Part shown: positions 7,181-18,156 of the stretch, one piece after another | Layout of the letters: the number at the start of each line of letters is the position of its first letter | Numbering within the stretch: the stretch's first letter is position 1 | Virus record (IMG/VR): IMGVR_UViG_3300034082_003586 | Span: 1-29,230 of that record | Strand: one strand, 5' to 3' | Source: a virus | Length of the DNA stretch: 29,230 nucleotides | Program-made: the position numbers and the translations under genes | The notes under the pieces: generated by a model | What the model was told of the DNA's origin: nothing | Database searches by the model: none | The model's input: only the letters and a program-made list of their open reading frames with translations

Positions 7181-7191
7181 TTAAATCCTTA

Positions 7192-7860: not shown

Positions 7861-7881
7861 AATTGCTATTTACAAATTAAA

Positions 7882-8607
7882 TTACTGCATAAATGGTTCT
7901 TGAGCTAGCTCTTTGCTATTCCAGAGGTAATCCTGGTAGATAGCGTTTAATTTTTCTTCATTAGTATTATGTTGTGTACCATATCCCTTAGCAAAATCCG
8001 ATGGGGGGATCTTGGTTTGTATTTGAAGCTTTCTTTTAACAGCATCAGTATTGTAAGGTGAGAACCCGTACCAAAGAACAACTAACCTGTCAGTTGTATG
8101 TGGTGTATCAAAGTGTCTGCCAAGAGGGTAGACATATAACCGCTTACTGTGAATAATTCTTGACCTTCTTATTTTAGATGCACCATCATTATAATGCATA
8201 CCATATGTCTTTTGACTAACCAAGGATTTATTTGGATCAGGAATAACGTCTGGTTGATTATCTACCATCACACAACACGGAAGAACAAGATTATCAGTAG
8301 TTGCATTATCGAGAATAGAATAGTCACCAACTAAGAACTCGGTAACGTTAAGGCACATCTTCCATCCTGGGTATTGACTCTCATAATCTATTACCTCATC
8401 GTCACATAACTTAGCATCAAAGAATTCATTCCTTGACTTAACAATAGTCCAAGTTGGACATATCTTTTTAATTATCTCTACAGATGAGTCAGTAGAATTA
8501 TAATCGATCATAACACCATGATCGAAATATTTTTTATGATGCTCTAACCACCAAGGGAGCAAATACTCTTCGTTAAAAAAATGTGTAACAACAGTTTTAC
8601 TTAGCAT
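7882..8607 (-). CDS. Glycosyltransferase, family 2-like (Glyco_tranf_2_4 type)
   Basis: A 241-residue protein with the typical entry VVTHFFNEEYLLPWWLEHHKKYFDHGVMIDYNSTDSS collapsed into short motifs: FNEE, PWWLEHH, and a YNSTDSS nucleotide-binding turn. A later VIDYESQYPGWKM and the GDYSILDN region follow the pattern of PF13704-type transferases related to GT92. A conserved HYNDGASKIRR segment lies in the second half. No signal or membrane anchor is visible, so it acts in the cytoplasm on an unknown acceptor. Confidence 0.82.
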   Translation of the reverse strand: MLSKTVVTHFFNEEYLLPWWLEHHKKYFDHGVMIDYNSTDSSVEIIKKICPTWTIVKSRNEFFDAKLCDDEVIDYESQYPGWKMCLNVTEFLVGDYSILDNATTDNLVLPCCVMVDNQPDVIPDPNKSLVSQKTYGMHYNDGASKIRRSRIIHSKRLYVYPLGRHFDTPHTTDRLVVLWYGFSPYNTDAVKRKLQIQTKIPPSDFAKGYGTQHNTNEEKLNAIYQDYLWNSKELAQEPFMQ

Positions 8608-8616
8608 AATTGACTT

Positions 8617-9198
8617 TCAAAATTTTGGATCTAATTTATATTCTTCAAATGACATAGCGTTTTTATCTTTATCAGAAATTATAGCTTTACTTGTTATTGC
8701 AAAAGGCAAGTCAACCATTAATGTTTTATCTAGAGGACAAATAGCACCTTCTGATTCCGCATTATGTACAGCTGTACAACTGTAACAAAAATGAGTTTCA
8801 TCTTCCAGAGAGATAAATGCATGACCAAACCCAGGAGGTACCCAGACTTGTTTAAAATTATCTCCTGAAAGATAGACCATTACATATTTACCAAATGTAG
8901 GTGATTTAGCACGCAAGTCTACCGCTACATCCATACCCGAACCCCTTACAACCCTGCAAAGTTTACCCATTGGGTTATTCCACTGGTAATGAATACCACG
9001 AATGACATACTTGTGAGACATAGAGTGGTTGTCTTGTACAAATGTCACACCAAGGACTTGCTCCACAAAAGGGTTTAGTGACTCAGTAAAGAAGCCGCGA
9101 TGATCAGAATATACCGGGCGTTCAAGTACCTTAACATCTGGTATAAAAGGATTAGATTCAATTTTCATAGGTATAAAAGGATTAGATTCAATTTTCAT
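8617..9198 (-). CDS. rfbC: dTDP-4-dehydrorhamnose 3,5-epimerase family (RmlC-type)
   Basis: A 193-residue cupin enzyme that epimerises a dTDP-4-keto-6-deoxy sugar in deoxysugar pathways. Motifs: DHRGFFTES, NHSMSHKYVIRGIHYQ with the catalytic His, GSGMDVAVDLRAKSPTFGK, and WVPPGFGHAF. The first ten residues are exactly repeated (MKIESNPFIP twice) because of a 30-bp tandem duplication at 9139-9198, so there are two candidate ATGs (9198 and 9168) and the longer product has an extra N-terminal decamer. No RmlA or RmlB is recognised in the window, so the intermediate may come from the host or elsewhere in the phage. Confidence 0.92.
   Translation of the reverse strand: MKIESNPFIPMKIESNPFIPDVKVLERPVYSDHRGFFTESLNPFVEQVLGVTFVQDNHSMSHKYVIRGIHYQWNNPMGKLCRVVRGSGMDVAVDLRAKSPTFGKYVMVYLSGDNFKQVWVPPGFGHAFISLEDETHFCYSCTAVHNAESEGAICPLDKTLMVDLPFAITSKAIISDKDKNAMSFEEYKLDPKF
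9139..9198 (-). repeat. 30-bp tandem duplication at the start of the RmlC-type gene
   Basis: Two adjacent 30-bp units (9139-9168 and 9169-9198) match at 29 of 30 positions. Each contains an ATG and codes for MKIESNPFIP. The reading frame is kept. Near identity suggests a recent slippage duplication. Confidence 0.97.
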
Positions 9199-9200
9199 AA

Positions 9201-9920
9201 TTAATATTTCTGTATAATGTTTCTTAGATCTTGTTTAGATCTTTCATTCCATCTTCTATGTGAGCCCGCTACGTAATGCATACCCATCAGGTCGCCTCTT
9301 TCATTTTTAAAATAGCAGTCACCGTAGTATGAAGCATCTGTCTGCCAGGCCAGTGTCTTAATCTGGTTATCTAAGATGTGCTTTCTTATCTTCCAACCAA
9401 CTTCTACAAACCCTGTAGCCCGATTTTGATCTACCTCTTGTTGCGTCAGTACCCAGCTCTTAGCTCTTGCAAGATTAATATCATAATAAGAACCAAAACA
9501 ACAAGGAATGTTTTTAAAGTTATCAGGATTAATATTTACCCATTGTCTTGTATCCTTACCATCATTGTACTCGGTACCAACAGCTTTATAACCTTGTTCA
9601 AACTTGTCTACAATGTAGTAATGTATATCATTGTTCAATACAAAGTAATCAGAGTCAATAATAGATACGATGCTTGTTTTACAAAATGTTAAGCCGTAAT
9701 CTATTGCCCGACCATGAGAGAGACCATCAAACGTTGGTGCACTATTACAGTACACATATTGGTAGTCTTCCGTTTCAGGTAGAACTCTTTTTTCGTTGTC
9801 AGGGGTATTATCTACTACAATTAAATTGTAAAGTTTTTTATCAAATCTCTTTTTGAAATTATCGACCTGCAGTTCTAATAGATCGTAATTTCTATAGATT
9901 ACTGTTACATAGTCAATCAT
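9201..9920 (-). CDS. Glycosyltransferase, GT-A fold
   Basis: A 239-residue enzyme with MIDYVTVIYRNYDLLELQ at the start, a YNLIVVDNTPDN nucleotide site, LSHGRAIDYGL, and IVSIIDSDYFVLN with the DSD (DxD) metal motif near residue 94. A later GTEYNDGK and a C-terminal HYVAGSHRRW segment are acceptor-side features. The start overlaps the upstream epimerase gene by 8 bp. The sugar donor is unknown; cluster context suggests a modified deoxyhexose. Confidence 0.85.
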   Translation of the reverse strand: MIDYVTVIYRNYDLLELQVDNFKKRFDKKLYNLIVVDNTPDNEKRVLPETEDYQYVYCNSAPTFDGLSHGRAIDYGLTFCKTSIVSIIDSDYFVLNNDIHYYIVDKFEQGYKAVGTEYNDGKDTRQWVNINPDNFKNIPCCFGSYYDINLARAKSWVLTQQEVDQNRATGFVEVGWKIRKHILDNQIKTLAWQTDASYYGDCYFKNERGDLMGMHYVAGSHRRWNERSKQDLRNIIQKY

Positions 9921-10803
9921 TGTATTCTATATAATCTTTTCGTATAACAATATTTGTTGTTGGATCTTTATAACAACTAACTACACTGTCTACTGTTGAC
10001 TCAATTGTCTCAGTAAACTTAAAGTCATAGTCTTTACAAAGCTTATCAGTATTAATATCAAAGTTATAAGCGCCTGCTGTATTACCTTTATCTATAATTT
10101 CAATACCTAACTTCTTACTTACATAACTGGAAATCTCATCTACGGTAGCAGTAAAGGAAGCAAGATTATACATGCCAGGAATAAAACTATACCTACCTTG
10201 ATACACTATGCGTTCTACAGCGCGTACTAGATCATCAATAGATAAAATAGAACGGTTTATGTGTTTATTGGCAACTGTAATCTTACCTTCATTATTTGCG
10301 GTATACACCATCATGTTAATCATAAGGTCTCTACGAATAACAGGGCTACTACCATTAACTGTACCGAATCTTAAACCTAGGATTTGTCTACCTTGTGCTT
10401 GATATTTTTGAGCGGCAATATCAAGGGTAATTTTAGTTAGGTCGTAATTGTTAAGAATATCTAAAGACATTTTATTCTCTGTAGATATATCATCTGAATT
10501 TCCGTACACAGATGCGCTACTCGCGTAAATAATTTTTGTATCTTTAGAAGTCTTCTCAACAAGGTTAATAAAATTACGAACATTGTTATGCCATGGTGAT
10601 CTGATATCACCAACGCACATCTGTACACTGGAATGACCGGCTAAAAGAATAATTGTTTTGAATGGCTCTAAAAACTCTTTAGTAAGCTTATTGTAATCAT
10701 TAGATCTATTACCATAAACCTCTACCTCGTGATTATGACTTCTTAAATGAGGTACAAGACGTGAACCTATGTATCCATTACCACCTATTACTAAAATACT
10801 CAT
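9913..10803 (-). CDS. NAD-dependent nucleotide-sugar epimerase/dehydratase
   Basis: A 296-residue extended SDR. It starts MSILVIGGNGYIGSRLVPHL with the GxxGxxG NAD site, has an LLAGHSSV strand, SSASVYGNS (catalytic Ser), and YDLTK (Tyr-x-x-x-Lys). The end of the fold shows SILSIDDLVRAV and a MYNLAS strand. The start at 10803 is chosen for AGGAAAATAAT just upstream, in preference to an ATG seven codons earlier. It lies one base after the aminotransferase stop. It should convert an NDP-sugar (epimerase, reductase or dehydratase). Confidence 0.88.
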   Translation of the reverse strand: MSILVIGGNGYIGSRLVPHLRSHNHEVEVYGNRSNDYNKLTKEFLEPFKTIILLAGHSSVQMCVGDIRSPWHNNVRNFINLVEKTSKDTKIIYASSASVYGNSDDISTENKMSLDILNNYDLTKITLDIAAQKYQAQGRQILGLRFGTVNGSSPVIRRDLMINMMVYTANNEGKITVANKHINRSILSIDDLVRAVERIVYQGRYSFIPGMYNLASFTATVDEISSYVSKKLGIEIIDKGNTAGAYNFDINTDKLCKDYDFKFTETIESTVDSVVSCYKDPTTNIVIRKDYIEYND

Positions 10804-10804
10804 A

Positions 10805-11887
10805 TTATTTTCCTGTATACTCATTCAATACTTTGATTATATGCTCTTGCTCAAACATAGTCAACCACCATCCGTTAGGAATACAAACCTGGGTTTCGGT
10901 AAACGATGTTACCCCTGGTAGATCACCTTCACGGAATTGAGATATACTGCTGTACATATCATTACGGAAGTGAACCGGGCTAACTGCAATACCGTTGCCC
11001 TCTAAGTACTTCGTAAAGTGATCTTTTAACCCTGCTTTCACATGCATACTGAATAACCAGTATGAGCAAGTATTATCCCATTCAGGTAAAGTCAGCAGAG
11101 GGTTATTTACTTTAGTAATATACTCTCTTGAATTACGTATACTGCAAGCAACTGAGTATTCTGCTTTACCTAAGTTAGCTAAACCAATTGCAGCATTAAT
11201 ATCGTTCATGTGATATTTAAAACCAACTTTGGTAATGTCTTGCGTACAGCGGAACGATTCGTTTTTAGTTCTATCAAGGCCGTACCAGCGTAGGGTACGA
11301 GCTTCGTTTTCTGTTTCAGGTGAGCAGACTAAAATACCACCATCACCGGTAGTAAGGAACTTAATTGCCTGAAAACTATAACATATATAATCACCGCGAT
11401 CTTCATCATCTATACGCGTAAATACATCCCAGGTATGAGCAGCATCCTCGATTACAGGTACACCAAATACTTTAAGTGCTTTATAATCACAAAGTTTACC
11501 TGCCCAGTTAACGGCCAGGATTGCTTTGGTTTTCTCATTAACTAATTTACCAACTGATACAGGATCAATGAGCCCGGTCAAGGGATCAATATCGGCCCAA
11601 CGCAGTCTAGCACCTCGATGAATTGCACCTACGTTAGATGCAAAACAGGTCTGAGGTGTTGCAATGACTTCGTCTCCGGGCTGTATGTTTAAAATATCTA
11701 ATGATAGGTCAATAGCTGCAGTACACGAATTTACAGTGACAGGTCTTGTCTTAGATTTTAATACATCCCAAAGACTATCTTCAAACTCTTCTACAACCGA
11801 ACCCTGACCAATGAAGCCAGAACTAAGTACAGCAGATACTTTTTCTGCTGCCTGATCCGACATCGCAACTTTAAATAACGGAATCAT
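10805..11887 (-). CDS. DegT/DnrJ/EryC1-type sugar aminotransferase
   Basis: A 360-residue PLP enzyme expected to aminate a 4- or 3-keto nucleotide sugar using glutamate. It begins MIPLFKVAMSDQAAEKVSAV and carries SSGFIGQGSVVEEFE, VNSCTAAIDLSLD, GDEVIATPQTCFAS, VIEDAAH (PLP-binding Asp), and FQAIKFLTTGDGG, where the Lys forms the Schiff base. The start at 11887 follows GGAGTATCAAT; the longer reading has none. The 17-bp overlap with the acetyltransferase gene upstream points to sequential amination and N-acetylation, as in FdtB/FdtC-like or Qdt-like pathways. Confidence 0.92.
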   Translation of the reverse strand: MIPLFKVAMSDQAAEKVSAVLSSGFIGQGSVVEEFEDSLWDVLKSKTRPVTVNSCTAAIDLSLDILNIQPGDEVIATPQTCFASNVGAIHRGARLRWADIDPLTGLIDPVSVGKLVNEKTKAILAVNWAGKLCDYKALKVFGVPVIEDAAHTWDVFTRIDDEDRGDYICYSFQAIKFLTTGDGGILVCSPETENEARTLRWYGLDRTKNESFRCTQDITKVGFKYHMNDINAAIGLANLGKAEYSVACSIRNSREYITKVNNPLLTLPEWDNTCSYWLFSMHVKAGLKDHFTKYLEGNGIAVSPVHFRNDMYSSISQFREGDLPGVTSFTETQVCIPNGWWLTMFEQEHIIKVLNEYTGK

Positions 11888-12335
11888 ATTGATACTCCAT
11901 GTAATATAATTTATCTGTTTCACCTGTTACTTTAAAGTTCAGGCCTTCGTAAGTTTTGAATGCTCGTGTATTACTTTTTAATACCTCAAGCCTAATAGGT
12001 AATGACTTATGACATTGGTCAACTAGAAACTTAAAGATAACTTTACCTAAACCTTTATCTCTATACTCAAGTACTAGACCACCAGTTAAAAGAAATTCGT
12101 TTTCATTTTTATGAACAACTCCAAAACCAGCATCAACAATACATACGCCATGCTCGATGGCATACGCAATGTATAGATCATATTTGCGAAACGCAGTCTT
12201 GAACCATTCCTCCTGCTGCTCAGGGGTAATAAACTCTGTACTACGCGTCATATATTCACGACATTGATTACGCACAACGCGGAGATTTTCAGCTTCAGCA
12301 GGCGTTGTAACTCTTTTAAAAACTATTTGTGTCAT
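11871..12335 (-). CDS. GNAT-family N-acetyltransferase
   Basis: A 154-residue acetyl-CoA-dependent transferase. It has an N-terminal RVTTPAEAENLRVVRNQ helix, the GGLVLEYRDKGLGKVIFKF acetyl-CoA loop (RDKGLG) near residue 93, and a LEVLKSNTRAFKTYEGLNF helix typical of GNATs. Proteins like this N-acetylate the amino group put on a nucleotide sugar, and the gene overlaps the DegT aminotransferase. Ribosomal-protein-type acetylation is the main alternative but does not fit the neighbourhood. Confidence 0.88.
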   Translation of the reverse strand: MTQIVFKRVTTPAEAENLRVVRNQCREYMTRSTEFITPEQQEEWFKTAFRKYDLYIAYAIEHGVCIVDAGFGVVHKNENEFLLTGGLVLEYRDKGLGKVIFKFLVDQCHKSLPIRLEVLKSNTRAFKTYEGLNFKVTGETDKLYYMEYQYDSVI

Positions 12336-13282
12336 AGAAAAACCTCTTTAAATTTCTTCATTACAGCTTCAGGCTTATACTGCTCCACCCTCTTAGTCCA
12401 GTCTTGATTACTCCACGCTGAAATATTACGAACCATAAAATTAAGCTCATGATTATCTTTATATAAGAGACCACTACCTGCTAACATCTCAATATGATTT
12501 AAGTCATGGCCATCATTCCATGCAAGGACCGGTTTATTTAAAGATAGAAATTCTGCAATTGATAAGCCAAAGCTTTCACCTCGCTGTCTTGCATGTAACA
12601 TTGCATCACATGTATTAATAAATTTTGCCTTCTTTAACGGGCTATGAAACTCATTAATAAACCGAACATTCGGGTGATCAATAAACGGCTCAGTACCTGC
12701 AAAAAGAAAAACAAACTCGTCTGTACTTGTAGCTAACTGCTTAATATATTCTTTTACAAACGGGATATCAAATGTATAGTACCCACCAATACGACCGATA
12801 ACTTTTTGATCAGCTCTAATATTGAAAGCACCGCGATAGTTATCGGTTGTATGAGGTAGTTGAACAATATGCGGTACAAAAGGTATGGTACCGCCTGACA
12901 TCTTTTGCGAAAGCCACTCGCTAATGTATGCATACCGATCCCCATGCGGTTGATTGAACTGGAATACCGCATGTACTGCAGTCTTACAATTCGTTGGTAG
13001 GGATTCTATCTGACCTGAGTTAATAAAGTATGCAAGATCAATATAATTTTCATCGATCTTCTTTTCTAGGTCGCCGGCACGGTACCCTACAACTTCAAAC
13101 TCTTTTTCGAGCTCCTCAATAACAGCTTGCTCATTACCCATGTCTTTTTCTACACCGTTTGTCTTACAGTATGTAATGACACTTTCATTACCAAGGATCT
13201 CTTGATTGTATCTTGCATAGTCAGTAATCGCTACAGTTGTACCTCTGTAGTTAATTGTATTAGCGTGGAATAATATTCTCAT
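12332..13282 (-). CDS. Glycosyltransferase, GT-B fold (GT4-like)
   Basis: A 316-residue protein. The N-terminal domain begins MRILFHANTINYRGTTVAITD, typical of GT-B donors and acceptors, and the C-terminal domain begins near residue 160 (KVIGRIGGYYTFD). The donor-site motif is ESFGLSIAEFLSLNKPVLAW near residue 242, with the E-x7-E spacing of retaining GT4 enzymes. ATGA overlaps join it to the flanking genes. Donor unknown. Confidence 0.88.
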   Translation of the reverse strand: MRILFHANTINYRGTTVAITDYARYNQEILGNESVITYCKTNGVEKDMGNEQAVIEELEKEFEVVGYRAGDLEKKIDENYIDLAYFINSGQIESLPTNCKTAVHAVFQFNQPHGDRYAYISEWLSQKMSGGTIPFVPHIVQLPHTTDNYRGAFNIRADQKVIGRIGGYYTFDIPFVKEYIKQLATSTDEFVFLFAGTEPFIDHPNVRFINEFHSPLKKAKFINTCDAMLHARQRGESFGLSIAEFLSLNKPVLAWNDGHDLNHIEMLAGSGLLYKDNHELNFMVRNISAWSNQDWTKRVEQYKPEAVMKKFKEVFL

Positions 13283-13944
13283 AATGTAAATGTAGTAGCT
13301 GAAGTAAAATTGTCTGTATTGAATGTGCCATCGATAACTTGATCACACCGCTTAACAAACATCTCAATGTTCTCTGCCATTCTAGATTGATAGAGATGAT
13401 AGATTGAATTATCGAACACCGTACCTATACCATAATAGCCAAGATTACTTAGAGGCCAGATACCCTCAGAAGAAGGCTTCTCAAAATATGTAGGCATCAA
13501 AGCACGATACTTTATATCCCACTCTTCTGCCATGTAACTTATTTCTTCAGCTGTATCTGACCTACGCGTTTCAGTAAATGAAGGCTGACCTAGTTTGTCA
13601 TATGCTTTCTTAGAGATAGCATAGAAGGCAGGTGCGGCATAGATATGGGACTTAGGGGGGATGTGGTTTGAGACTTGAGCAATGCCAACAAATGTCTCAT
13701 TACGATTTGCATACTTAATATACTCTAAGTAATTTTTATTAAGCGGGATACAATCGGGCTCCATAAACACAATAACGTCACTTGACGAGTTATTGATTAC
13801 CCATTGCATCCACATACCATGATTATGACCATCACGGTTATCATAATTCATCGGAATACTAAAATGGTCCATGACACGTTGATGTGCTGACAGCATATCT
13901 TTATCAACGTTATTCCAATGTAACGAATTAAACTCAACTTTCAT
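13279..13944 (-). CDS. Putative glycosyltransferase, GT-A-like, first gene of cluster
   Basis: A 221-residue protein that starts the glycan operon and has a strong AGGAGTGTGAT ribosome site. Residues about 57-68 read VIVFMEPDCIPLN, the usual acidic turn at the metal site of GT-A enzymes. The IYAAPAFYAISKKAYDKLG segment is also seen in such enzymes. Its end overlaps the GT-B gene. Function is inferred from motif and operon; a nucleotide-sugar-binding protein without catalysis is possible. Confidence 0.75.
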   Translation of the reverse strand: MKVEFNSLHWNNVDKDMLSAHQRVMDHFSIPMNYDNRDGHNHGMWMQWVINNSSSDVIVFMEPDCIPLNKNYLEYIKYANRNETFVGIAQVSNHIPPKSHIYAAPAFYAISKKAYDKLGQPSFTETRRSDTAEEISYMAEEWDIKYRALMPTYFEKPSSEGIWPLSNLGYYGIGTVFDNSIYHLYQSRMAENIEMFVKRCDQVIDGTFNTDNFTSATTFTL

Positions 13945-13977
13945 ATCACACTCCTATCATATAATTATAATATAGAC

Positions 13978-14005
13978 AAAGAAAAACCGCCACTGGGGAC
14001 GGTTT
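13978..14005 (-). terminator. Rho-independent terminator of the tRNA operon
   Basis: On the minus strand AAACCG (14005-14000) pairs with CGGTTT (13989-13984) around a 10-nt loop and is followed by TTCTTTGTC, a U-rich tail. It lies just after tRNA-Leu(UAA), the last tRNA, and before the glycan cluster. Confidence 0.7.
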
Positions 14006-14019: not shown

Positions 14020-14096
14020 TGGTGCGAGTGGCGGGACTCGAACCCGCAGATTATGGATTTTAAGTCCACTGCCTATACCAATTCGGCTACACTCGC
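14020..14096 (-). tRNA. tRNA-Leu(UAA), short variable loop
   Basis: GCGAGTG/CACTCGC acceptor stem, CTTAAAA anticodon loop, A73 and encoded CCA. The anticodon stem is followed by only AATCT before the T stem, so the long variable arm normal for bacterial tRNA-Leu is missing. The D arm (GAATTGGTATA loop) still looks like a leucine tRNA. Confidence 0.93.
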
Positions 14097-14127
14097 ACAT
14101 AAATACTTAAAATTACTTTATAAAAAA

Positions 14128-14730
14128 ATGAATCCCTATACCGAATTAGACGTACCGGTTGATGCTTCCTTAGAAACCATTAAACAACGGTATAGAACTT
14201 TAGCACAAATGTATCACCCTGATAAAGGTGGTGATGAAGAGATATTTAAACGTATTAAACTTGCGTATGAAATATTAAGTGATCCTGTTAGAAGAAAACA
14301 ATATGATATTACAGGTGAAACTACTACTACGAATGCTAAAGATGAAGCTGTTGCAAACATAGTTCAAATTCTGTTACACGTTGTACCTAGTTTTAACGTT
14401 GATCAAGATGACCTTATTCATATTGCTGAAATGGAAACTAGGTCTATGCTTGACCTTGTATTTAAAGACATAGGAGTTACAGAAAGGTATATTGTTAATC
14501 TTGAAAAAGTTTCGAAAAAGTTAAGAATAAAAACCGAAGGTGAAAATTTATTAAATAGCTTTGTCCTTAATCAAATACAACAAAGAAGACAAGAGCTTGT
14601 AACATTTCAACACAGAGTACGAGTTTGTAATCTTATGCTTGAAATACTTAAAGACTATGAATACGGTTTAAGAGTTATTATGAATGAAATGCCTGTTCCA
14701 CCCGAAAATACCGGTCAAAGTAACGAGTAA
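14128..14730 (+). CDS. J-domain (DnaJ-like) protein
   Basis: The only plus-strand gene. It encodes 200 residues: a J-domain at about residues 2-65 (YTELDVPVDASLETIKQRYR, HPD at MYHPDKGGDEEIFKRI, AYEILSDPVRRKQYD) and a helical C-terminal half without the Gly/Phe or zinc-finger parts of DnaJ. It should stimulate an Hsp70 ATPase, presumably the host DnaK. Start MNPYTELD is chosen because the J-domain begins there; the frame is open further into tRNA-Leu. No ribosome site is seen, only an A-rich TATAAAAAAATG. Its 3' end overlaps the opposing FlbD-like gene by 16 bp, so it lies antisense in the tRNA operon. Confidence 0.88.
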   Translation: MNPYTELDVPVDASLETIKQRYRTLAQMYHPDKGGDEEIFKRIKLAYEILSDPVRRKQYDITGETTTTNAKDEAVANIVQILLHVVPSFNVDQDDLIHIAEMETRSMLDLVFKDIGVTERYIVNLEKVSKKLRIKTEGENLLNSFVLNQIQQRRQELVTFQHRVRVCNLMLEILKDYEYGLRVIMNEMPVPPENTGQSNE

Positions 14731-14900
14731 ATCTCATCAACTGTTTCTCTTACATTCCATGTACCTGAAGCACCACAGAAGACTGTAGTTACCGTTTCAT
14801 CTTCAGTAGTATTTTCGAATATTGAAATAATATTTTCTTTTTTAAGAATAAGCCGTTTGTCTTGAAACGGTAAAGAAGCGTTAGTAAGTTTAATAAACAT
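14715..14900 (-). CDS. Small FlbD-like protein
   Basis: A 61-residue protein, started at 14900 after AGAGAGACTAT; the open frame otherwise runs back into tRNA-Arg. It matches the pattern of the FlbD family: MFIKLTNASLPF, KRLILKKENIISIFENT, TVTTVFCGAS, then VRETVDEIYSLL. FlbD proteins are small beta-strand proteins common in flagellar operons and widespread in phages with unknown role. It is within the tRNA transcript, between tRNA-Arg(UCU) and tRNA-Leu(UAA). Confidence 0.75.
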   Translation of the reverse strand: MFIKLTNASLPFQDKRLILKKENIISIFENTTEDETVTTVFCGASGTWNVRETVDEIYSLL

Positions 14901-14920
14901 ATAGTCTCTCTTATAAAAAA

Positions 14921-14995
14921 TGGTCCAGCGTACAGGAATCGAACCCATATTCACGGCTTAGAAGACCGCTGTATTATCCATTATACTAACGCCGG
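14921..14995 (-). tRNA. tRNA-Arg(UCU)
   Basis: CCGGCGT/ACGCTGG acceptor stem, GCGGT-CTTCTAA-GCCGT anticodon arm, TTCGATT T-loop, A73 and encoded CCA. Reads AGA/AGG. Confidence 0.94.
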
Positions 14996-15000
14996 AAAAA

Positions 15001-15077
15001 TGGTGCCCAAGGAGAGACTCGAACTCTCAAAATTTGGCTTCTAAGACCAACACGTATACCAATTCCGTCACCTGGGC
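15001..15077 (-). tRNA. tRNA-Leu(UAG), short variable loop
   Basis: GCCCAGG/CTTGGGC acceptor, TTGGT-CTTAGAA-GCCAA anticodon arm, TTCGAGT T-loop, A73, encoded CCA. The variable loop is only ATTTT. The D arm TGACGGAATTGGTATACGTG resembles normal class II leucine tRNAs, so the long variable arm appears to have been lost. Confidence 0.93.
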
Positions 15078-15083
15078 AAATCC

Positions 15084-15554
15084 TTAGGCTGCTAATACTT
15101 CTTTTAATCTATCAGCCGCATAGCTAGCAGCAAATGCATTCGGTTTTACCATCGGTATCACGTTACATGTACCTTTAATATAACCAACTGCCTGCTGTAT
15201 CACTACACTACTATTATAACGTATATCCGGATTAATATCAAGGTGTATCTGCACTTCTTTTTCACCAATTGAATCAACAATTTTATGATACAGTTCCGCC
15301 ACCTTATACACTTCATTCATCAGACGCATAGATGGTTTACTTGCCTTAGCATCGTAATCAATCTCGGTCTGAATCTCACCAAAAATCTTACACCCGTGAC
15401 GACCGTTGATATGTACGACAATCGCTAAAGTATAATCTGCATACCATCTACCATCACGTTTCATTCTTTCTGAATCAGCCCCGATGTAGATTTTTGTCTC
15501 TGGACTCTGTGATTCAATGAAAGCTTTAACTTCGTCTATATTTAATTTTTTCAT
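15084..15554 (-). CDS. RNase H-like (DUF458/YkuK-type) protein
   Basis: A 156-residue product. KIYIGADSERMKRDGRWYADYTLAIVVHI has the acidic strand of the RNase H fold, and QIHLDINPDIRYNSS and the C-terminal VKPNAFAASYAADRL fit the YkuK/DUF458 family of predicted RNase H-like proteins. The start at 15554 is the first ATG; the longer reading uses GTG. It lies between tRNA-Leu(UAG) and tRNA-Gly and should be transcribed with them, so an RNA-processing role is tempting, but this is inference. Confidence 0.8.
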   Translation of the reverse strand: MKKLNIDEVKAFIESQSPETKIYIGADSERMKRDGRWYADYTLAIVVHINGRHGCKIFGEIQTEIDYDAKASKPSMRLMNEVYKVAELYHKIVDSIGEKEVQIHLDINPDIRYNSSVVIQQAVGYIKGTCNVIPMVKPNAFAASYAADRLKEVLAA

Positions 15555-15570
15555 GGTATACACTTCTTAA

Positions 15571-15644
15571 TGGAGCAGGGTGCGAGAATCGAACTCGCGA
15601 CTTGAACTTGGAAGGATCTAGTTTTACCACTAAACTAACCCTGC
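15571..15644 (-). tRNA. tRNA-Gly(UCC)
   Basis: GCAGGGT/ACCCTGC acceptor, CTTCCAA anticodon loop, TTCGATT T-loop, T73 and encoded CCA. The anticodon stem has A27-A43 and T30-T40 mismatches, so it is weak. Confidence 0.9.
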
Positions 15645-15646
15645 GT

Positions 15647-15722
15647 TGGCACCCCGGGAAGGCCTCGAACCTTCAACCCCTGGTTTTGGAGACCAGTGCT
15701 CTGCCAATTGAGCTACCGAGAT
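15647..15722 (-). tRNA. tRNA-Trp(CCA)
   Basis: ATCTCGG/CCGGGGT acceptor with two G-T pairs, CTGGT-CTCCAAA-ACCAG anticodon arm, G73 and encoded CCA. Only 2 bp separate it from tRNA-Gly. Confidence 0.93.
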
Positions 15723-15728
15723 ATATTA

Positions 15729-15777
15729 TATATCGTTAACGAGATATCCTACATGCAATATATCGTTTACGAGATAT
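15729..15777 (-). repeat. Two copies of a 19-bp near-palindromic repeat between tRNA-Trp and tRNA-Arg
   Basis: TATATCGTTAACGAGATAT at 15729-15747 and TATATCGTTTACGAGATAT at 15759-15777 differ at one base. The first holds the perfect palindrome TCGTTAACGA. The second copy ends exactly at the 3' end of tRNA-Arg(UCG). Possible processing signal, operator or duplicated tRNA flank. Confidence 0.85.
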
Positions 15778-15853
15778 GGTGCGTCTGGAGAGATTCGAAC
15801 TCCCAACCTTCAGTTTCGAAGACTGACTTTCTATCCAGTTGAATTACAGACGC
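15777..15853 (-). tRNA. tRNA-Arg(UCG)
   Basis: GCGTCTG/CAGACGC acceptor, TCAGT-CTTCGAA-ACTGA anticodon arm, TTCGAAT T-loop, A73 and encoded CCA. Position 10-25 is an A-A mismatch. U34 rather than A34 means CGN reading by wobble rather than by the host tRNA-Arg(ACG) route. Confidence 0.93.
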
Positions 15854-15858
15854 ATGTA

Positions 15859-15933
15859 TGGTGGTGACAGTTGGATTCGAGCCAACGACCTGCTCCGTAT
15901 GAAGGAGCTGCACTACCGCTGTGCTATGTCACC
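15859..15933 (-). tRNA. tRNA-Met(CAU), elongator type
   Basis: GGTGACA/TGTCACC acceptor fully paired, so not an initiator. GCTCC-TTCATAC-GGAGC anticodon arm, A73, encoded CCA. The T-loop is CTCGAAT, with C54 in place of the usual T54. A lysidine-type Ile2 identity cannot be fully excluded. Confidence 0.9.
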
Positions 15934-15938
15934 GTAAT

Positions 15939-16028
15939 TGGCGGAGAGTCAGGGAGTCGAACCCTGTGACCGTATTACTACTGTCTACGGATTAGCAATC
16001 CGCTGCATTACCATCCTGCCCACTCTCC
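15939..16028 (-). tRNA. tRNA-Ser(GCU)
   Basis: GGAGAGT/ACTCTCC acceptor, CGGAT-TGCTAAT-type anticodon loop with GCT, long variable arm (TAGACAGTAGTAATACGGTCA region), TTCGACT T-loop, G73, encoded CCA. The 5' half overlaps the 3' end of the 57-aa gene at 15992-16165. Confidence 0.93.
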
Positions 16029-16165
16029 AATTCTTGAATCCTATTTGCAGCCTCTTCTAACAGGTCTGCAATACGATCAGGCTTATTTTCCTGAACGGAT
16101 TTTCTATCTTTTATCTGCCTGCGTATTTCAGCACGCTTACGTAAACGGTAAATTAAACTTTCCAT
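15992..16165 (-). CDS. 57-aa charged helical protein whose 3' end runs into tRNA-Ser
   Basis: ATG at 16165 follows AAGGGTGTAAA. The product starts MESLIYRLRKRAEIRRQI and has DRIADLLEEAANRIQELE, a coiled-coil stretch seen in many small phage proteins. The last twelve codons lie inside tRNA-Ser(GCU), and the TAA stop overlaps the first base of... the anticodon region (TGC TAA over the GCU anticodon). Removing the tRNA by RNase P would destroy the mRNA end, so one transcript can give either tRNA or protein, not both. Function unknown. Confidence 0.72.
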   Translation of the reverse strand: MESLIYRLRKRAEIRRQIKDRKSVQENKPDRIADLLEEAANRIQELESGQDGNAADC

Positions 16166-16178
16166 TTTACACCCTTAA

Positions 16179-16267
16179 TGGCGGAAGACTGGCGTAATCG
16201 AAACCCTGGCCTTTCGGCTCCACCTGCGTTCAAAACAGGGCCAGCATCCCCGGCTGGACAATCTTCC
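16179..16267 (-). tRNA. tRNA-Ser(UGA)
   Basis: GGAAGAT/GTCTTCC acceptor, CCTGT-TTTGAAC-GCAGG anticodon arm, long variable arm with a GCC-GAAA-GGC hairpin, G73 and encoded CCA. The T stem is irregular around TTTCGATTACGCC, and the loop position 32 is T, so the tRNA is slightly degenerate. Confidence 0.87.
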
Positions 16268-16274
16268 ATTAACT

Positions 16275-16350
16275 TGGTACCGAGAGACGGGATCGAACCG
16301 CCCACACCTTGTGCTTCAAACAAGTGCTCTACCAACTGAGCTATCTCGGC
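16275..16350 (-). tRNA. tRNA-Phe(GAA)
   Basis: GCCGAGA/TCTCGGT acceptor with a G1-T72 wobble pair, CTTGT-TTGAAGC-ACAAG anticodon arm, TTCGATC T-loop, A73 and encoded CCA. Confidence 0.95.
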
Positions 16351-16359
16351 AATTTTCTT

Positions 16360-16433
16360 TGGGGTGACCACTGAGAATTGAACTCAGATAAGCGGAATCA
16401 CAATCCACGACTTTACCATTAAGTTATGGCCAC
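16360..16433 (-). tRNA. tRNA-His(GUG) without encoded G-1
   Basis: GTGGCCA/TGGTCAC acceptor fully paired, GTGGA-TTGTGAT-TCCGC anticodon arm, TTCAATT T-loop, C73, encoded CCA. The base before position 1 is T, not the G-1 that bacterial tRNA-His normally encodes opposite C73. Confidence 0.92.
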
Positions 16434-16450
16434 ACCAAAGAAAACTACTA

Positions 16451-16536
16451 CCATAGAAAAACACACTCAAGTCCGCGGCACGGAAGGCACTATACCCGCG
16501 ATGGCTTTTGACCAGGCCTAGTGTGTTTATCTATAG
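16451..16536 (-). ncRNA. Structured RNA element A in tRNA operon
   Basis: The ends 16451-16467 and 16520-16536 pair over 17 positions with two mismatches (CATAGAAAAACACACT against AGTGTGTTTATCTATAG). Inside are a CGCGG/CCGCG hairpin (16474-16478 with 16496-16500) and a weak GGC/GCC hairpin. It is homologous at its ends to element C and shares its three-way-junction layout with B and C. There is no anticodon arm or gene here. The strand follows the operon; the symmetrical stem does not decide it. Confidence 0.6.
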
Positions 16537-16541
16537 TTACC

Positions 16542-16643
16542 ATATTGAAACACACTATGCAACAGGTTTAGGTCTGCTTCTGTATCCTGTTACGGCTTAG
16601 TATGAAGTTATCTCTGGACCTCAGCCGTAATATGCTTCAATAT
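16542..16643 (-). ncRNA. Structured RNA element B in tRNA operon
   Basis: An outer stem pairs ATATTGAA (16542-16549) with TTCAATAT (16636-16643) and continues with interruptions. Inside are two adjacent hairpins: AACAGG/CCTGTT (16561-16566 with 16586-16591) and ACGGCT/AGCCGT (16592-16597 with 16623-16628). The left end (accatattgaaacacact) aligns with the left ends of elements A and C. Confidence 0.6.
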
Positions 16644-16647
16644 AATT

Positions 16648-16742
16648 TACCATAGAAAAACACACTCTTAAACCTTCCTTCAGCGGTTAGTCGCTATCTC
16701 CCTTACTAATCGGGCGTAGGGTAAGTATGTTTATCTATGGTA
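16648..16742 (-). ncRNA. Structured RNA element C in tRNA operon
   Basis: The ends 16648-16666 and 16724-16742 pair over 19 positions with two mismatches. Inside are AGCG/CGCT (16682-16685 with 16692-16695) and CCCT/AGGG (16700-16703 with 16718-16721) hairpins. On the minus strand it begins at the ACCA end of tRNA-Lys, so the outer stem includes the tRNA 3' end. T4 also has two stable RNAs of unknown function in its tRNA cluster. Confidence 0.6.
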
Positions 16743-16812
16743 GGGGCACAGAGAATCGAACTCTGATTAATAGGTTAAAAGCCTACTACTTTAGCCGTTA
16801 AGTTATACCCCC
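16738..16812 (-). tRNA. tRNA-Lys(UUU)
   Basis: GGGGGTA/TGCCCCT acceptor, GTAGG-CTTTTAA-CCTAT anticodon arm, TTCGATT T-loop, A73 and encoded CCA. The 5' ten bases overlap the stop end of the 43-aa gene, and the 3' CCA overlaps the outer stem of RNA element C. Confidence 0.94.
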
Positions 16813-16934
16813 ATAGGTATTTGGTTTTGTGCTTTACGCAATGCCTTATTAGACTTACGATGAACACCTGCTTTACGGAATAGTGCTAGACGAACGAAGC
16901 AGTTACGTTCGCGCACGATTTTCTTTCGCTTCAT
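16803..16934 (-). CDS. 43-aa basic conserved phage protein ending in tRNA-Lys
   Basis: ATG at 16934 with a strong TAGGAGATAGAA ribosome site. The product begins MKRKKIVRERNCFVRLALFR and continues KAGVHRKSNKALRKAQNQ: very basic, probably nucleic-acid-binding, and of a type I have often seen among small tailed-phage proteins. Its final codons GGG GTA TAA are the first bases of tRNA-Lys. It has its own promoter at 16954-16981. Function unknown. Confidence 0.85.
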   Translation of the reverse strand: MKRKKIVRERNCFVRLALFRKAGVHRKSNKALRKAQNQIPMGV

Positions 16935-16953
16935 TTCTATCTCCTAAAATACT

Positions 16954-16981
16954 ATTATAGTTGCTCTCACGAAAAGGGCAA
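16954..16981 (-). promoter_or_regulatory. Internal sigma-70 promoter in tRNA operon
   Basis: Minus strand: CGTAACGG upstream, -35 TTGCCC, 16-nt spacer, -10 TATAAT. A GTTGC...GCAAC inverted repeat overlaps the -35 and spacer. It would boost the 43-aa gene, tRNA-Lys, the structured RNAs and later tRNAs. Confidence 0.65.
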
Positions 16982-16989
16982 CCGTTACG

Positions 16990-17067
16990 TGGCAGAGGGT
17001 ACTGGATTCGAACCAGTGATCACGGAGTCAAAGTCCGATGCTTTAGACCGAGCTAAGCTAACCCCCA
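16990..17067 (-). tRNA. tRNA-Gln(UUG)
   Basis: TGGGGGT/ACCCTCT acceptor with an unpaired T1-T72, as glutamine tRNAs favour a weak first pair. CGGA-CTTTGAC-TCCG anticodon arm, TTCGAAT T-loop, G73 and encoded CCA. Confidence 0.93.
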
Positions 17068-17073
17068 ACAAAC

Positions 17074-17149
17074 TGGTACCTGGTGACGGGATCGAACCGC
17101 CGACATCCCACTTGTAAGGAGGGCGCTACTACCGCTGAGCTAACCAGGC
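17074..17149 (-). tRNA. tRNA-Val(UAC)
   Basis: GCCTGGT/ACCAGGT acceptor, CCCTC-CTTACAA-GTGGG anticodon arm with one T-T mismatch, TTCGATC T-loop, A73 and encoded CCA. Confidence 0.93.
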
Positions 17150-17158
17150 AAAAAATAT

Positions 17159-17234
17159 TGGCTCCCCAGGGTGGGATCGAACCACCGACACCTTGATTAA
17201 CAGTCAAGTGCTACTACCGCTGAGCTACTGAGGA
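17159..17234 (-). tRNA. tRNA-Asn(GUU)
   Basis: TCCTCAG/CTGGGGA acceptor, TTGA-CTGTTAA-TCAA anticodon arm, TTCGATC T-loop, G73 and encoded CCA. Confidence 0.95.
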
Positions 17235-17241
17235 ATAAACT

Positions 17242-17313
17242 TGGTGGACCTATGGGGTAACGATCCCCAAGCATGGCATTGCAAGTGCCTTTCCCTACCC
17301 ATTAGGTAAGCCC
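17242..17313 (-). tRNA. tRNA-Ala(UGC), compact and atypical
   Basis: GGGCTTA/TAGGTCC acceptor keeps the alanine identity pair G3-T70 and has A73 and encoded CCA. CTTGCAA anticodon loop. Only 72 nt: the T8-A9 linker appears to be missing, the D arm is CCT-AATGGGT-AGG, and the T-loop is ATCGTTA with A54. Confidence 0.85.
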
Positions 17314-17320
17314 AAAATAC

Positions 17321-17394
17321 TGGTCTCGGTAGCAGGAATCGAACCTACGCTCTATCGTCCCAAACGACAAGTGATACCATTTCACCATACCGAG
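17321..17394 (-). tRNA. tRNA-Pro(UGG)
   Basis: CTCGGTA/TACCGAG acceptor, TGTCG-TTTGGGA-CGATA anticodon arm, TTCGATT T-loop, A73 and encoded CCA. Confidence 0.94.
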
Positions 17395-17401
17395 AAAAAA
17401 C

Positions 17402-17475
17402 TGGAAGCGGGTGAAGGATTCGCACCTCCGATGATCCGAGCTTATGAGACTGGATTGTTGGCTACACTACCCGCT
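17402..17475 (-). tRNA. tRNA with CAU anticodon (Ile2 or Met), divergent
   Basis: AGCGGGT/ACCCGCT acceptor, CTCATAA loop, encoded CCA with T73. It departs from the norm: no GG in the D-loop, a bulged C in the anticodon stem, and a TGCGAAT T-loop with G55. It lacks initiator marks (no unpaired 1-72, no GGG/CCC anticodon stem). It may be the lysidine-type tRNA-Ile2 for AUA or a decaying tRNA-Met. Confidence 0.75.
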
Positions 17476-17481
17476 AAAAAA

Positions 17482-17565
17482 TGGTGGAAGCGGTTGGATT
17501 CGAACCAACGTGCTGTTACGAACGGATTTACAGTCCGTCACCTTCGGCCTCTCAGTCACACTTCC
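17482..17565 (-). tRNA. tRNA-Tyr(GUA)
   Basis: GGAAGTG/CGCTTCC acceptor, ACGGA-CTGTAAA-TCCGT anticodon arm, long variable arm, TTCGAAT T-loop, A73 and encoded CCA. Confidence 0.95.
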
Positions 17566-17572
17566 ATTAACT

Positions 17573-17647
17573 TGGTGCCCCAGGAAGGAATCGAACCTCC
17601 ACACCCTGCTTACAAAACAGGACCTCTACCACTAAGGATACAAGGGC
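17573..17647 (-). tRNA. tRNA-Thr(UGU)
   Basis: GCCCTTG/CTGGGGC acceptor with one T-T mismatch, CCTGT-TTTGTAA-GCAGG anticodon arm, TTCGATT T-loop, A73 and encoded CCA. Confidence 0.93.
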
Positions 17648-17655
17648 AAAAAAAC

Positions 17656-17730
17656 TGGCGACTCGTGGGAGAATCGAACTCCCATCTACGGATAGACAAT
17701 CCGCGATAATGACCATTATATGAACGAGCC
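17656..17730 (-). tRNA. tRNA-Asp(GUC)
   Basis: GGCTCGT/ACGAGTC acceptor, CGGA-TTGTCTA-TCCG anticodon arm, TTCGATT T-loop, G73 and encoded CCA. Confidence 0.95.
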
Positions 17731-17739
17731 TAAAATCAT

Positions 17740-17815
17740 TGGAGTACGCGACAGGAGTCGAACCTGCATAAAACAGAGTTGCAGTCTGTTCCCTAGCCTT
17801 TCGGGTCACACGTAC
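17740..17815 (-). tRNA. tRNA-Cys(GCA)
   Basis: GTACGTG/CGCGTAC acceptor, ACAGA-CTGCAAC-TCTGT anticodon arm, TTCGACT T-loop, T73 as usual for cysteine, encoded CCA. Confidence 0.94.
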
Positions 17816-17820
17816 ATTAA

Positions 17821-17859
17821 CCATATTAAAAAACACTAGCTTAATGCTCTTTAATATGG
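17821..17859 (-). other. 10-bp hairpin abutting the tRNA-Glu 3' end
   Basis: CCATATTAAA (17821-17830) pairs perfectly with TTTAATATGG (17850-17859) around a 19-nt loop. On the minus strand the left arm starts with the CCA of tRNA-Glu, the same arrangement seen at tRNA-Lys with RNA element C. A processing signal or a reduced member of that RNA family. Confidence 0.7.
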
Positions 17860-17931
17860 TGCTCCCGAACGGTTTCGATCCGTCTTCTCCGCCTTGAAAG
17901 GGCAGCGTCCTAGCCAGTAGACGACAGGAGC
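17857..17931 (-). tRNA. tRNA-Glu(UUC)
   Basis: GCTCCTG/CGGGAGC acceptor, GCC-CTTTCAA-GGC anticodon arm, A73 and encoded CCA. The T-loop is ATCGAAA, with A54. Confidence 0.93.
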
Positions 17932-17935
17932 ATAT

Positions 17936-18009
17936 TGGTATCTGGTAGAGGTAACGCTCCTCTGTCTTTCGATTATCAGTCGAATGCTCTACTATTGAGC
18001 TAACCAGAC
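17936..18009 (-). tRNA. tRNA-Ile(GAU), first tRNA of the operon
   Basis: GTCTGGT/ACCAGAT acceptor, TTCGA-CTGATAA-TCGAA anticodon arm, A73 and encoded CCA. The D-loop AATAGTA lacks the GG pair and the T-loop is AGCGTTA (A54, G55), so both partners of the 18-55 elbow contact are changed. Confidence 0.92.
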
Positions 18010-18024
18010 ACATTAAATGGTATG

Positions 18025-18043
18025 CAAATTTTTAAAGAACAAT
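18025..18043 (-). promoter_or_regulatory. boxA-like antitermination element in tRNA operon leader
   Basis: On the minus strand TTGTTCTTTAAAAATTTGC closely follows the rrn boxA form (E. coli TGCTCTTTAACAA), which binds NusB-S10 to make RNA polymerase termination-resistant. It lies between the hairpin at 18044-18059 and tRNA-Ile. Confidence 0.65.
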
Positions 18044-18059
18044 GTTGATTATTATCAAC
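18044..18059 (-). promoter_or_regulatory. boxB-like hairpin upstream of boxA
   Basis: GTTGAT-AATA-ATCAAC forms a 6-bp stem with a 4-nt loop, a few bases after the predicted start site and one base before boxA. Order and spacing are those of boxB-boxA in rRNA leaders. Confidence 0.6.
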
Positions 18060-18071
18060 GCTACAGAATCT

Positions 18072-18100
18072 ATTTTAACCTATTCTGCAGTTTCGTGCAA
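18072..18100 (-). promoter_or_regulatory. Sigma-70 promoter of the tRNA operon
   Basis: Minus strand: CGTAACG upstream, -35 TTGCAC, 17-nt spacer, -10 TAAAAT. Predicted start near 18065. It lies downstream of the terminator at 18125-18156, so the tRNA operon is an independent unit. Confidence 0.75.
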
Positions 18101-18124: not shown

Positions 18125-18156
18125 AAAAAACCCTCGGGGCTTTCGCTTTCCGAGGG
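18125..18156 (-). terminator. Strong rho-independent terminator
   Basis: CCCTCGG (18131-18137) pairs with CCGAGGG (18150-18156) and is followed on the minus strand by six U. It ends the ncRNA unit and any read-through from the DUF932 gene. Confidence 0.9.

Follow-up and report, generated by a model that had tools for sequence, protein, structure and literature searches.

The reason for the large tRNA sets of certain phages is an old open question. The recruitment of host antitermination by phages is familiar from lambdoid nut sites, where boxA and host Nus factors are employed. Complete tRNA sets are a known kind of feature as well, e.g., in phage XacN1, harboring 26 canonical tRNAs per terminal repeat and covering all 20 amino acids (PMC5852040). 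The validated consensus of boxA is GYTCTTTAANA; by its authors' account, the corresponding study left non-coding RNAs out of consideration (PMC5725501). The locus described here, a tRNA array in a 29,230-bp virus fragment (IMG/VR record IMGVR_UViG_3300034082_003586, analyzed over its whole length and referred to below as the window), comprises 24 tRNA genes for 20 amino acids at positions 14020-18009, all on the minus strand; further tRNAs are possible elsewhere in the genome. It is preceded by a boxA identical to that of betaproteobacterial ribosomal RNA (rrn) operons and contains hairpins of a family shared with permuted transfer-messenger RNAs (tmRNAs). Neither the boxA leader nor the hairpin family is described in the literature searched, and no report of a boxA on a phage tRNA operon was found there, most subscription papers lying outside that search.

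With some reserve, the array is interpreted here as a host-transcribed, rrn-style stable-RNA operon topping up or replacing a failing host tRNA pool. For the wider proposition the scales are about level: many phage tRNA arrays may be "pseudo-rrn" operons which borrow the rRNA boxA of the host clade for the Nus complex and bear undescribed, covarying, CCA-anchored hairpins shared with permuted tmRNAs, serving as processing signals and possibly releasing small RNAs.

The boxA Leader

The 18-mer ahead of the first tRNA gene contains GTTCTTTAAAA, which matches the boxA consensus; a match to a boxA pattern with two mismatches or fewer is expected 0.08 times in the whole window. Among the 80 matches listed for the exact 18-mer in bacterial genomes, about two dozen come from Betaproteobacteria (Alcaligenaceae, Burkholderiales, Ferrovum) and fall within leaders or spacers of rRNA operons, several of them situated 222–229 nt before the 16S start and most continuing with ACAACCGATAAGTGTGGGCGC; the remaining listed matches are scattered in AT-rich DNA. 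The locus displays two features of an rrn-type boxA operon, the consensus in a presumably transcribed leader and sequence identity with the host type. A small hairpin directly before boxA was considered as a boxB and rejected, its stability being no greater than that of shuffled sequences.

The same arrangement recurs in other viral contigs: 44 of 83 boxA sites precede the first tRNA of an array, on its strand, by not more than 60 nt, 43 of them at a distance of 6–17 nt, whereas a permuted control pattern of the same composition had none of its 14 sites near a tRNA. Another 30 of the 83 sites are nowhere near tRNAs. The boxA-bearing leaders belong to at least eight distinct types as judged by eye (automatic clustering was rough), and several of the others display 11–12 of 12 promoter matches just upstream. 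Two samples not selected by boxA point in the same direction. Among the relatives of the window, fetched via the DUF932 gene adjoining the array, boxA was found in six of seven large-array lineages vs. none of six small ones (Fisher p 0.005). In contigs selected by the hairpins (see below), it precedes the first tRNA in 10 of 35 large arrays vs. 8 of 659 internal tRNAs (Fisher 9e-10). Regarding the isolates, Xanthomonas phage X1 (35 RF00005 hits) carries GTTCTTTAAAA 17 nt before its first tRNA, and XacN1 carries GTTCTTTAACA at 36631, inside the tRNA zone and not adjoining the first tRNA; the betaproteobacterial leader as a 64-nt query gave no tRNA-linked match in isolated phages.

The boxA of Gammaproteobacteria occurs in many enterobacterial phage records and precedes tRNA arrays at 3 of 80 viral-contig sites; the Firmicutes type does so at 1 of 80 sites. 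An exact copy of the rrn boxA of the E. coli type (TGCTCTTTAACAATTTA) is present in mostly unannotated stretches of several isolated enterobacterial phages, e.g., K1-5, K1E and SU7, suggesting that rrn boxA may be used more widely by phages.

The Hairpin Family

A second signal of the array is a large, covarying family of hairpins of the form CCAUA..AAACACAUU - AGUGUGUUU..UAUGG, which occur in the spaces separating phage tRNAs and also inside phage permuted tmRNA, in its intervening sequence. From tRNA-Lys to tRNA-His (16451-16740), three such elements follow one another, a long stem closing each of them, and a minimal hairpin lies between tRNA-Glu and tRNA-Cys (Table 1). The search pattern AAACACATT-N(30,60)-AGTGTGTTT retrieved 117 further viral loci. 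In 194 distinct elements (this number and those given below are inflated by common descent), positions −8 to −2, which lie outside the core preselected by the search pattern, are 86–97% paired with several pair types each; positions further out are about 37% paired, i.e., at the background level.

The family is anchored to tRNA ends. Within the scanned elements, 86 of 128 are situated not more than 200 nt from a tRNA; as many as 82 of the 87 distinct tRNA-touching elements have their start at the CCA of the preceding tRNA (Lys in 43 cases, Gln in 18), and 31 of the 87 extend as far as the opening bases of the following tRNA. In the phage permuted tmRNA of record L635, the hairpin occupies the intervening sequence, bounded by the CCA on one side and by the 5′ G of the coding half on the other. 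A stem reaching as far as the discriminator base of the preceding tRNA was tried and rejected (60 of 82 paired vs. 60.0 expected). Rfam 15 gave no match to the elements outside its tRNA and tmRNA models, and the elements were not found in the annotated phages, plasmids and E. coli genomes searched. The family represents a candidate for a new class of RNA with a link to the maturation of tRNA and tmRNA, which could act in processing by RNase III or by RNase P/E.

Nearly identical AAACACATT/AGTGTGTTT hairpins without tRNAs were also seen in prophages of isolate genomes (L671:3811-3879, L652, L649, L666 and similar ones). These prophages look Pasteurellaceae/Mu-like, and the hairpin apparently lies within a larger structured RNA.

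Gene Content of the Array

ARAGORN located 22 tRNAs in the array, and the Rfam model RF00005 recovered 21 at its gathering score; all 24 have an encoded CCA at the 3′ end. The two tRNAs missed by ARAGORN, tRNA-Ala (UGC) and tRNA-Ser (UGA), were captured by custom covariance models, a type I model trained on 60 phage-array tRNAs and a Ser-tRNA model built from the tRNAs of other phage arrays, the lineage of the window being left out of both. In the type I model, tRNA-Ala (UGC) and the second CAU tRNA reached E values of 1.8e-7 and 6e-7, respectively, with the best non-tRNA match at 9.9 bits; for both, the minimum-energy structure is a cloverleaf. Read from its sequence, tRNA-Ala keeps G3:U70, the determinant of alanyl-tRNA synthetase; decay of this gene, as judged from its T-loop variant ATCGTTA, was rejected, similar loops recurring in other arrays. 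The E value of tRNA-Ser (UGA) in the Ser-tRNA model was 1.7e-6 within the cluster, and it shares its acceptor stem and position with the counterpart in L031; due to its imperfect T stem, it is the weakest of the 24. An earlier note on this DNA, made from the sequence alone, had listed 24 minus-strand tRNAs with encoded CCA and proposed a check by ARAGORN and covariance scoring: its anticodon list was confirmed throughout, three weak members passing when the better-matched models were applied.

CAU is the only anticodon occurring twice; the number of repeated anticodons was otherwise 0 vs. 7.1 expected for 24 tRNAs drawn from the pooled array frequencies. Neither the lack of repeats nor the coverage of 20 amino acids was reached in any of 4000 such draws. 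Hence, the non-redundancy is not due to chance; it is likewise typical of most large arrays examined. The view of the earlier note that the set is near-minimal and non-redundant, and thereby differs from the supply of a handful of tRNAs for rare codons, is borne out, and the locus possesses the attributes of a complete-isotype phage tRNA array: many clustered, functional-looking tRNAs, 20 amino acids and a phage context.

Relatives of the Window

Matches to PHROGs in the window include a clamp, a clamp loader, Hsp20 and an RNA ligase. By the clamp loader, the nearest isolate is Methylophilales phage Melnitz (63%), which harbors four tRNAs and a two-piece tmRNA (PMC9004378). The relatives carry a permuted tmRNA of the betaproteobacterial type; comparison with isolated phages at the DNA level gave short, mostly tRNA matches. 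Up to tRNA-Lys, L022 and L023 hardly differ from the window (99.97% for L022). L031 possesses an equally minimal set of 24 tRNAs (21 by ARAGORN plus Ile-GAU, Tyr and Ser-UGA by hand), with Ile-UAU and without an initiator. The 163-kb contig L034 has 27 tRNAs including Gly-GCC, Thr-GGU, Arg-ACG, Ile-UAU and an initiator. Complete 20-amino-acid arrays are present in L053, L277, L286, L291 and L292 as well.

Beyond tRNA-Lys, L022:3280-4414 is almost wholly different from the window at 16433-16737; an open reading frame (ORF) resembling by eye a GIY-YIG-type homing gene, hairpin elements and an extra tRNA are seen there, reminiscent of cassette-like turnover.

Proposed Operation of the Array

Taken as an rrn-style operon, the array would operate as follows. 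Host RNA polymerase would start at the sigma70-like promoter (about 18100-18072), so the first transcribed sequence would contain a boxA identical to that of the rRNA operons of the host. Host NusB/S10 and partners are predicted to bind this boxA and to convert the polymerase into a Rho-resistant form, and such antitermination would provide 4 kb of largely untranslated RNA at high yield. The long hairpins starting at the CCA ends of tRNAs probably help to cut the transcript into individual tRNAs. After charging, these would constitute a broad pool in which each tRNA is present once, covering 20 amino acids and including a probable initiator, and would sustain phage translation once the host tRNAs are degraded or cleaved. 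Loss of host tRNA during infection is reported (Yang et al. 2021, as cited in PMC10264068). A high-yield operon of the rrn style would fit such loss better than it would fit the supply of rare codons. If host rRNA antitermination indeed drives the arrays, they are made for an output comparable to that of the rRNA genes; this would suit a role in replacing the tRNA pool better than one in fine tuning.

Several observations weigh against this interpretation. The 24 genes probably form one operon of a T4-like phage infecting a betaproteobacterium, but the identity of the host is itself an inference. The promoter of the window matches its consensus weakly. Relatives with 89–91% identical DUF932 keep the locus with only 4–7 tRNAs visible and no boxA, so a large pool is dispensable. 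Furthermore, 25 of the 35 large arrays selected by the hairpins lack boxA, and none was found near the tRNA arrays of KVP40, T5, T4, Felix O1, CcrColossus, Atu_ph07 and Lacusarx; the boxA leader is therefore not general. The leader and the hairpin family make the array testable, boxA being a simple genetic handle, and the clade-specific boxA sequence may help to predict the hosts of uncultured phages.

Alternative Explanations and Decoding Capacity

A possible, if doubtful, alternative is evasion of host defence: single phage tRNAs would stand in for tRNAs cleaved by anticodon nucleases (PrrC, PARIS AriB, effectors of retrons or Septu), and the multitude of such nucleases would account for the large set. 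This function is known for some phage tRNAs (PMC10264068, PMC11555353). In line with it, the window encodes an RNA ligase (PHA02142, 24068-25123), and the number of tRNAs differs strongly between close relatives. However, the ligase was not found as a conserved partner in 12 related records, several of which are fragments, so it lends weak support to anticodon-nuclease repair; moreover, the anticodon loops of tRNA-Lys and most others look standard in sequence.

It is unlikely that the array is a case of codon supplementation, in which the tRNAs match the supply to AT-rich phage codons poorly read by the host and completeness is a by-product of accumulation. Codon use in the window does favor A/T endings, and the tRNAs of XacN1 correspond to codons commoner in the phage than in its host (PMC5852040), which speaks for this explanation. 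Nevertheless, neither need-driven nor random gain is expected to yield a set with zero repeated anticodons and a tRNA for every amino acid, Trp and Met included.

Full autonomy, i.e., a set in which wobble and superwobble together give access to every codon, so that translation becomes independent of host tRNAs, seems quite improbable. There is one tRNA per codon box for 20 amino acids, and 60 of 61 codons are readable if every wobble uridine (U34) superwobbles. Superwobble requires an unmodified U34, though, and host enzymes would modify it. With standard wobble, the array reads 74% of codon occurrences in the window; with uridine 5-oxyacetic acid (cmo5U) in all four-codon boxes, it reads 91.5%, and only with superwobble 98.2%. 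Under the ordinary rules for U34, 26% of codon occurrences stay unread, including GGU, the main Gly codon. Related arrays add Gly-GCC, Thr-GGU, Arg-ACG or Ile-UAU, suggesting that single U34 tRNAs are often insufficient.

The window has 605 Ile codons, of which 142 (23%) are AUA, and the reading of these hinges on the second CAU tRNA. The latter possesses an NGCGGG..CCCGCN acceptor (GCGGG/CCCGC) with a weak A1:U72 pair, this pair being C:A, A:A or U:U in related tRNAs; its GUCUCAUAAGC anticodon arm and TGCGAAT T loop closely resemble those seen in initiator-type tRNAs from L053, L082 and L094. The weak 1:72 pair and the NGCGGG acceptor are those of an initiator, but the three G:C pairs of the lower anticodon stem are missing (the stem is CCAGU/GCUCG), as they are in the C1:A72 initiator-type tRNA of L053. 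Most likely, then, this tRNA is initiator-like, falling short of a proven initiator. Its assignment to lysidine-bearing tRNA-Ile2 was rejected, as it has no acceptor, D arm or anticodon stem in common with the Ile2 of other arrays (GGGCCTATAGCTTAA..ACTCATAAT). A hidden AUA reader was rejected as well, there being neither a TAT-anticodon loop in a tRNA context nor a third CAU tRNA in the cluster. Since the second CAU tRNA is initiator-like and not Ile2, the set most likely has no AUA reader, and the tRNAs of the fragment do not cover all 61 sense codons.

The earlier note had held that the set reads the whole code, initiation and possibly AUA excepted, and could free translation from host tRNAs. 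The AUA gap probably stands and the initiation gap probably does not, the second CAU tRNA serving for initiation and not for AUA. Reading of the remaining codons holds on the condition of universal superwobble, and independence from host tRNAs is unlikely, given the missing AUA reader and the codons unread by ordinary rules. Decoding probably still leans on the host, at least for AUA, and for many C-ending and some U-ending codons of four-codon boxes.

As a side observation, tRNAs called Ile (UAU) had a long variable arm (type II, 90–95 nt) in 41 of 42 calls from two samples (L031:5796-5887, L034:14912-15004, L237, L249, L256, L264, L285, L286, L306, L310 and others), frequently with the conserved arm AGCGCCAGAT(T/A)AGCG; they represent an unusual putative AUA reader. 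A literature search on these type II tRNAs gave no usable report.

Finally, it is highly improbable that the 18-mer arose as a chance match in AT-rich DNA, or that it guides tRNA processing instead of antitermination: its AT-richness and the viral sites far from tRNAs would suit such a reading, but its exact rrn identity, its fixed position before first and not internal tRNAs, the empty permuted control and the low expectation of the pattern anywhere in the window argue against it.

Other Features of the Locus

The coordinates of the tRNA genes, the leader and the hairpins are collected in Table 1.

Table 1. Features of the tRNA array and its leader in the window.
Feature	Position	Strand	Evidence or remarks
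Terminator-like hairpin, insulates operon upstream	18125..18156	-	conserved in L031, L026, L033
Sigma70-like promoter TTGCAC-17-TAAAAT	18072..18100	-	sequence; by consensus alone a weak match; TTGCAC also present in L031
Small hairpin GTTGAT-AATA-ATCAAC directly before boxA, boxB-like position	18044..18059	-	z -0.34 vs. shuffles
boxA 18-mer TTGTTCTTTAAAAATTTG, identical to betaproteobacterial rrn boxA	18025..18042	-	15 nt before tRNA-Ile
tRNA-Ile (GAU), first of array, T loop AGCGTTA	17936..18009	-	ARAGORN; RF00005 59.9 bits; type I model
tRNA-Glu (UUC)	17857..17931	-	ARAGORN, RF00005, type I model
Minimal long hairpin between tRNA-Glu and tRNA-Cys, begins at CCA of tRNA-Glu	17818..17860	-	z -6.4
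tRNA-Cys (GCA)	17740..17815	-	ARAGORN, RF00005, type I model
tRNA-Asp (GUC)	17656..17730	-	ARAGORN, RF00005, type I model
tRNA-Thr (UGU)	17573..17647	-	ARAGORN, RF00005, type I model
tRNA-Tyr (GUA)	17482..17565	-	ARAGORN, RF00005, type I model
Second tRNA with CAU anticodon, most likely of the initiator fMet type (A1:U72, U73, TGCGAAT T loop)	17402..17475	-	ARAGORN; type I model 30.2 bits; class comparison; cloverleaf minimum free energy (MFE)
tRNA-Pro (UGG)	17321..17394	-	ARAGORN, RF00005, type I model
tRNA-Ala (UGC), 4-bp anticodon stem, G3:U70, T loop ATCGTTA	17242..17313	-	type I model 32.0 bits; cloverleaf MFE; missed by ARAGORN and Rfam
tRNA-Asn (GUU)	17159..17234	-	ARAGORN, RF00005, type I model
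tRNA-Val (UAC)	17074..17149	-	ARAGORN, RF00005, type I model
tRNA-Gln (UUG)	16990..17067	-	ARAGORN, RF00005, type I model
tRNA-Lys (UUU)	16738..16812	-	ARAGORN, RF00005, type I model
Stem-flanked RNA element 1, begins at CCA of tRNA-Lys	16650..16740	-	z about -4.5
Stem-flanked RNA element 2, interior nearly identical to element in L093 phage permuted tmRNA	16540..16645	-	shuffle test; sequence comparison
Stem-flanked RNA element 3, interior same as L317, nearly same in L236	16451..16536	-	shuffle test; sequence comparison
tRNA-His (GUG)	16360..16433	-	ARAGORN, RF00005, type I model
tRNA-Phe (GAA)	16275..16350	-	ARAGORN, RF00005, type I model
tRNA-Ser (UGA), G73, long variable arm, imperfect T stem	16179..16267	-	Ser model 29.6 bits; tRNA-Sec model 32.3 bits (below its cut-off); missed by ARAGORN
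tRNA-Ser (GCU)	15939..16028	-	ARAGORN, RF00005, Ser model
tRNA-Met (CAU), elongator type	15859..15933	-	ARAGORN, RF00005, class comparison
tRNA-Arg (UCG)	15777..15853	-	ARAGORN, RF00005, type I model
tRNA-Trp (CCA)	15647..15722	-	ARAGORN, RF00005, type I model
tRNA-Gly (UCC)	15571..15644	-	ARAGORN, RF00005, type I model
RNase H-like protein gene (PF04308) within array	15084..15554	-	Pfam match
tRNA-Leu (UAG)	15001..15077	-	ARAGORN, RF00005, type I model
tRNA-Arg (UCU)	14921..14995	-	ARAGORN, RF00005, type I model
tRNA-Leu (UAA), last of array	14020..14096	-	ARAGORN, RF00005, type I model
Terminator-like hairpin directly after last tRNA	13977..14005	-	

Several protein-coding genes are interspersed with the tRNA genes or border them. 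A DnaJ-domain gene (14053-14730, plus strand) runs opposite to the array between tRNA-Arg (UCU) and the last tRNA; its ORF start as listed overlaps tRNA-Leu. Two small minus-strand ORFs, 16803-16934 (43 aa, very basic) and 15992-16165 (57 aa), have their stops inside the following tRNA-Lys and tRNA-Ser (GCU) genes, respectively, and gave no match in Pfam or PHROG. A near-identical palindrome pair (ATATCTCGTWWACGATATAT) is located at 15728-15777, between tRNA-Arg (UCG) and tRNA-Trp. Positions 4626-13944 accommodate a long series of sugar-nucleotide/glycosyltransferase-like genes (epimerase, aminotransferase), possibly related to surface glycans or decoration.

Comparison with Known Systems

In its clustered, nearly non-redundant tRNAs, the locus resembles XacN1, Shigella phage Sf14 (26 tRNAs for 19 amino acids) and a Vibrio phage (Yang et al. 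2021). It differs from XacN1 by the single U34 tRNA per four-codon box and by the rrn-identical boxA ahead of the first tRNA. The identical 18-nt boxA following a promoter, as well as the stable, mostly untranslated RNA predicted downstream, are shared with bacterial rRNA operons (NusB/S10, SuhB); unlike these, the locus is phage-encoded and contains no rRNA, and boxB/boxC are not established in it. Unlike that of lambdoid nut sites, the boxA of the window is of the rrn type and precedes tRNAs, and no N protein or boxB requirement was found. The AAACACAUU..AGUGUGUUU hairpin is common to the intervening sequence of permuted (two-piece) tmRNA, whereas the hairpins of the array lie between two complete tRNAs. 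The stable RNAs C and D of T4 offer an analogy only: they are small RNAs beside tRNA CCA ends, in a cluster with a GIY-YIG gene. As homologues of the elements of the window they were rejected, since rnaC and rnaD lack the shared AAACACA stem.

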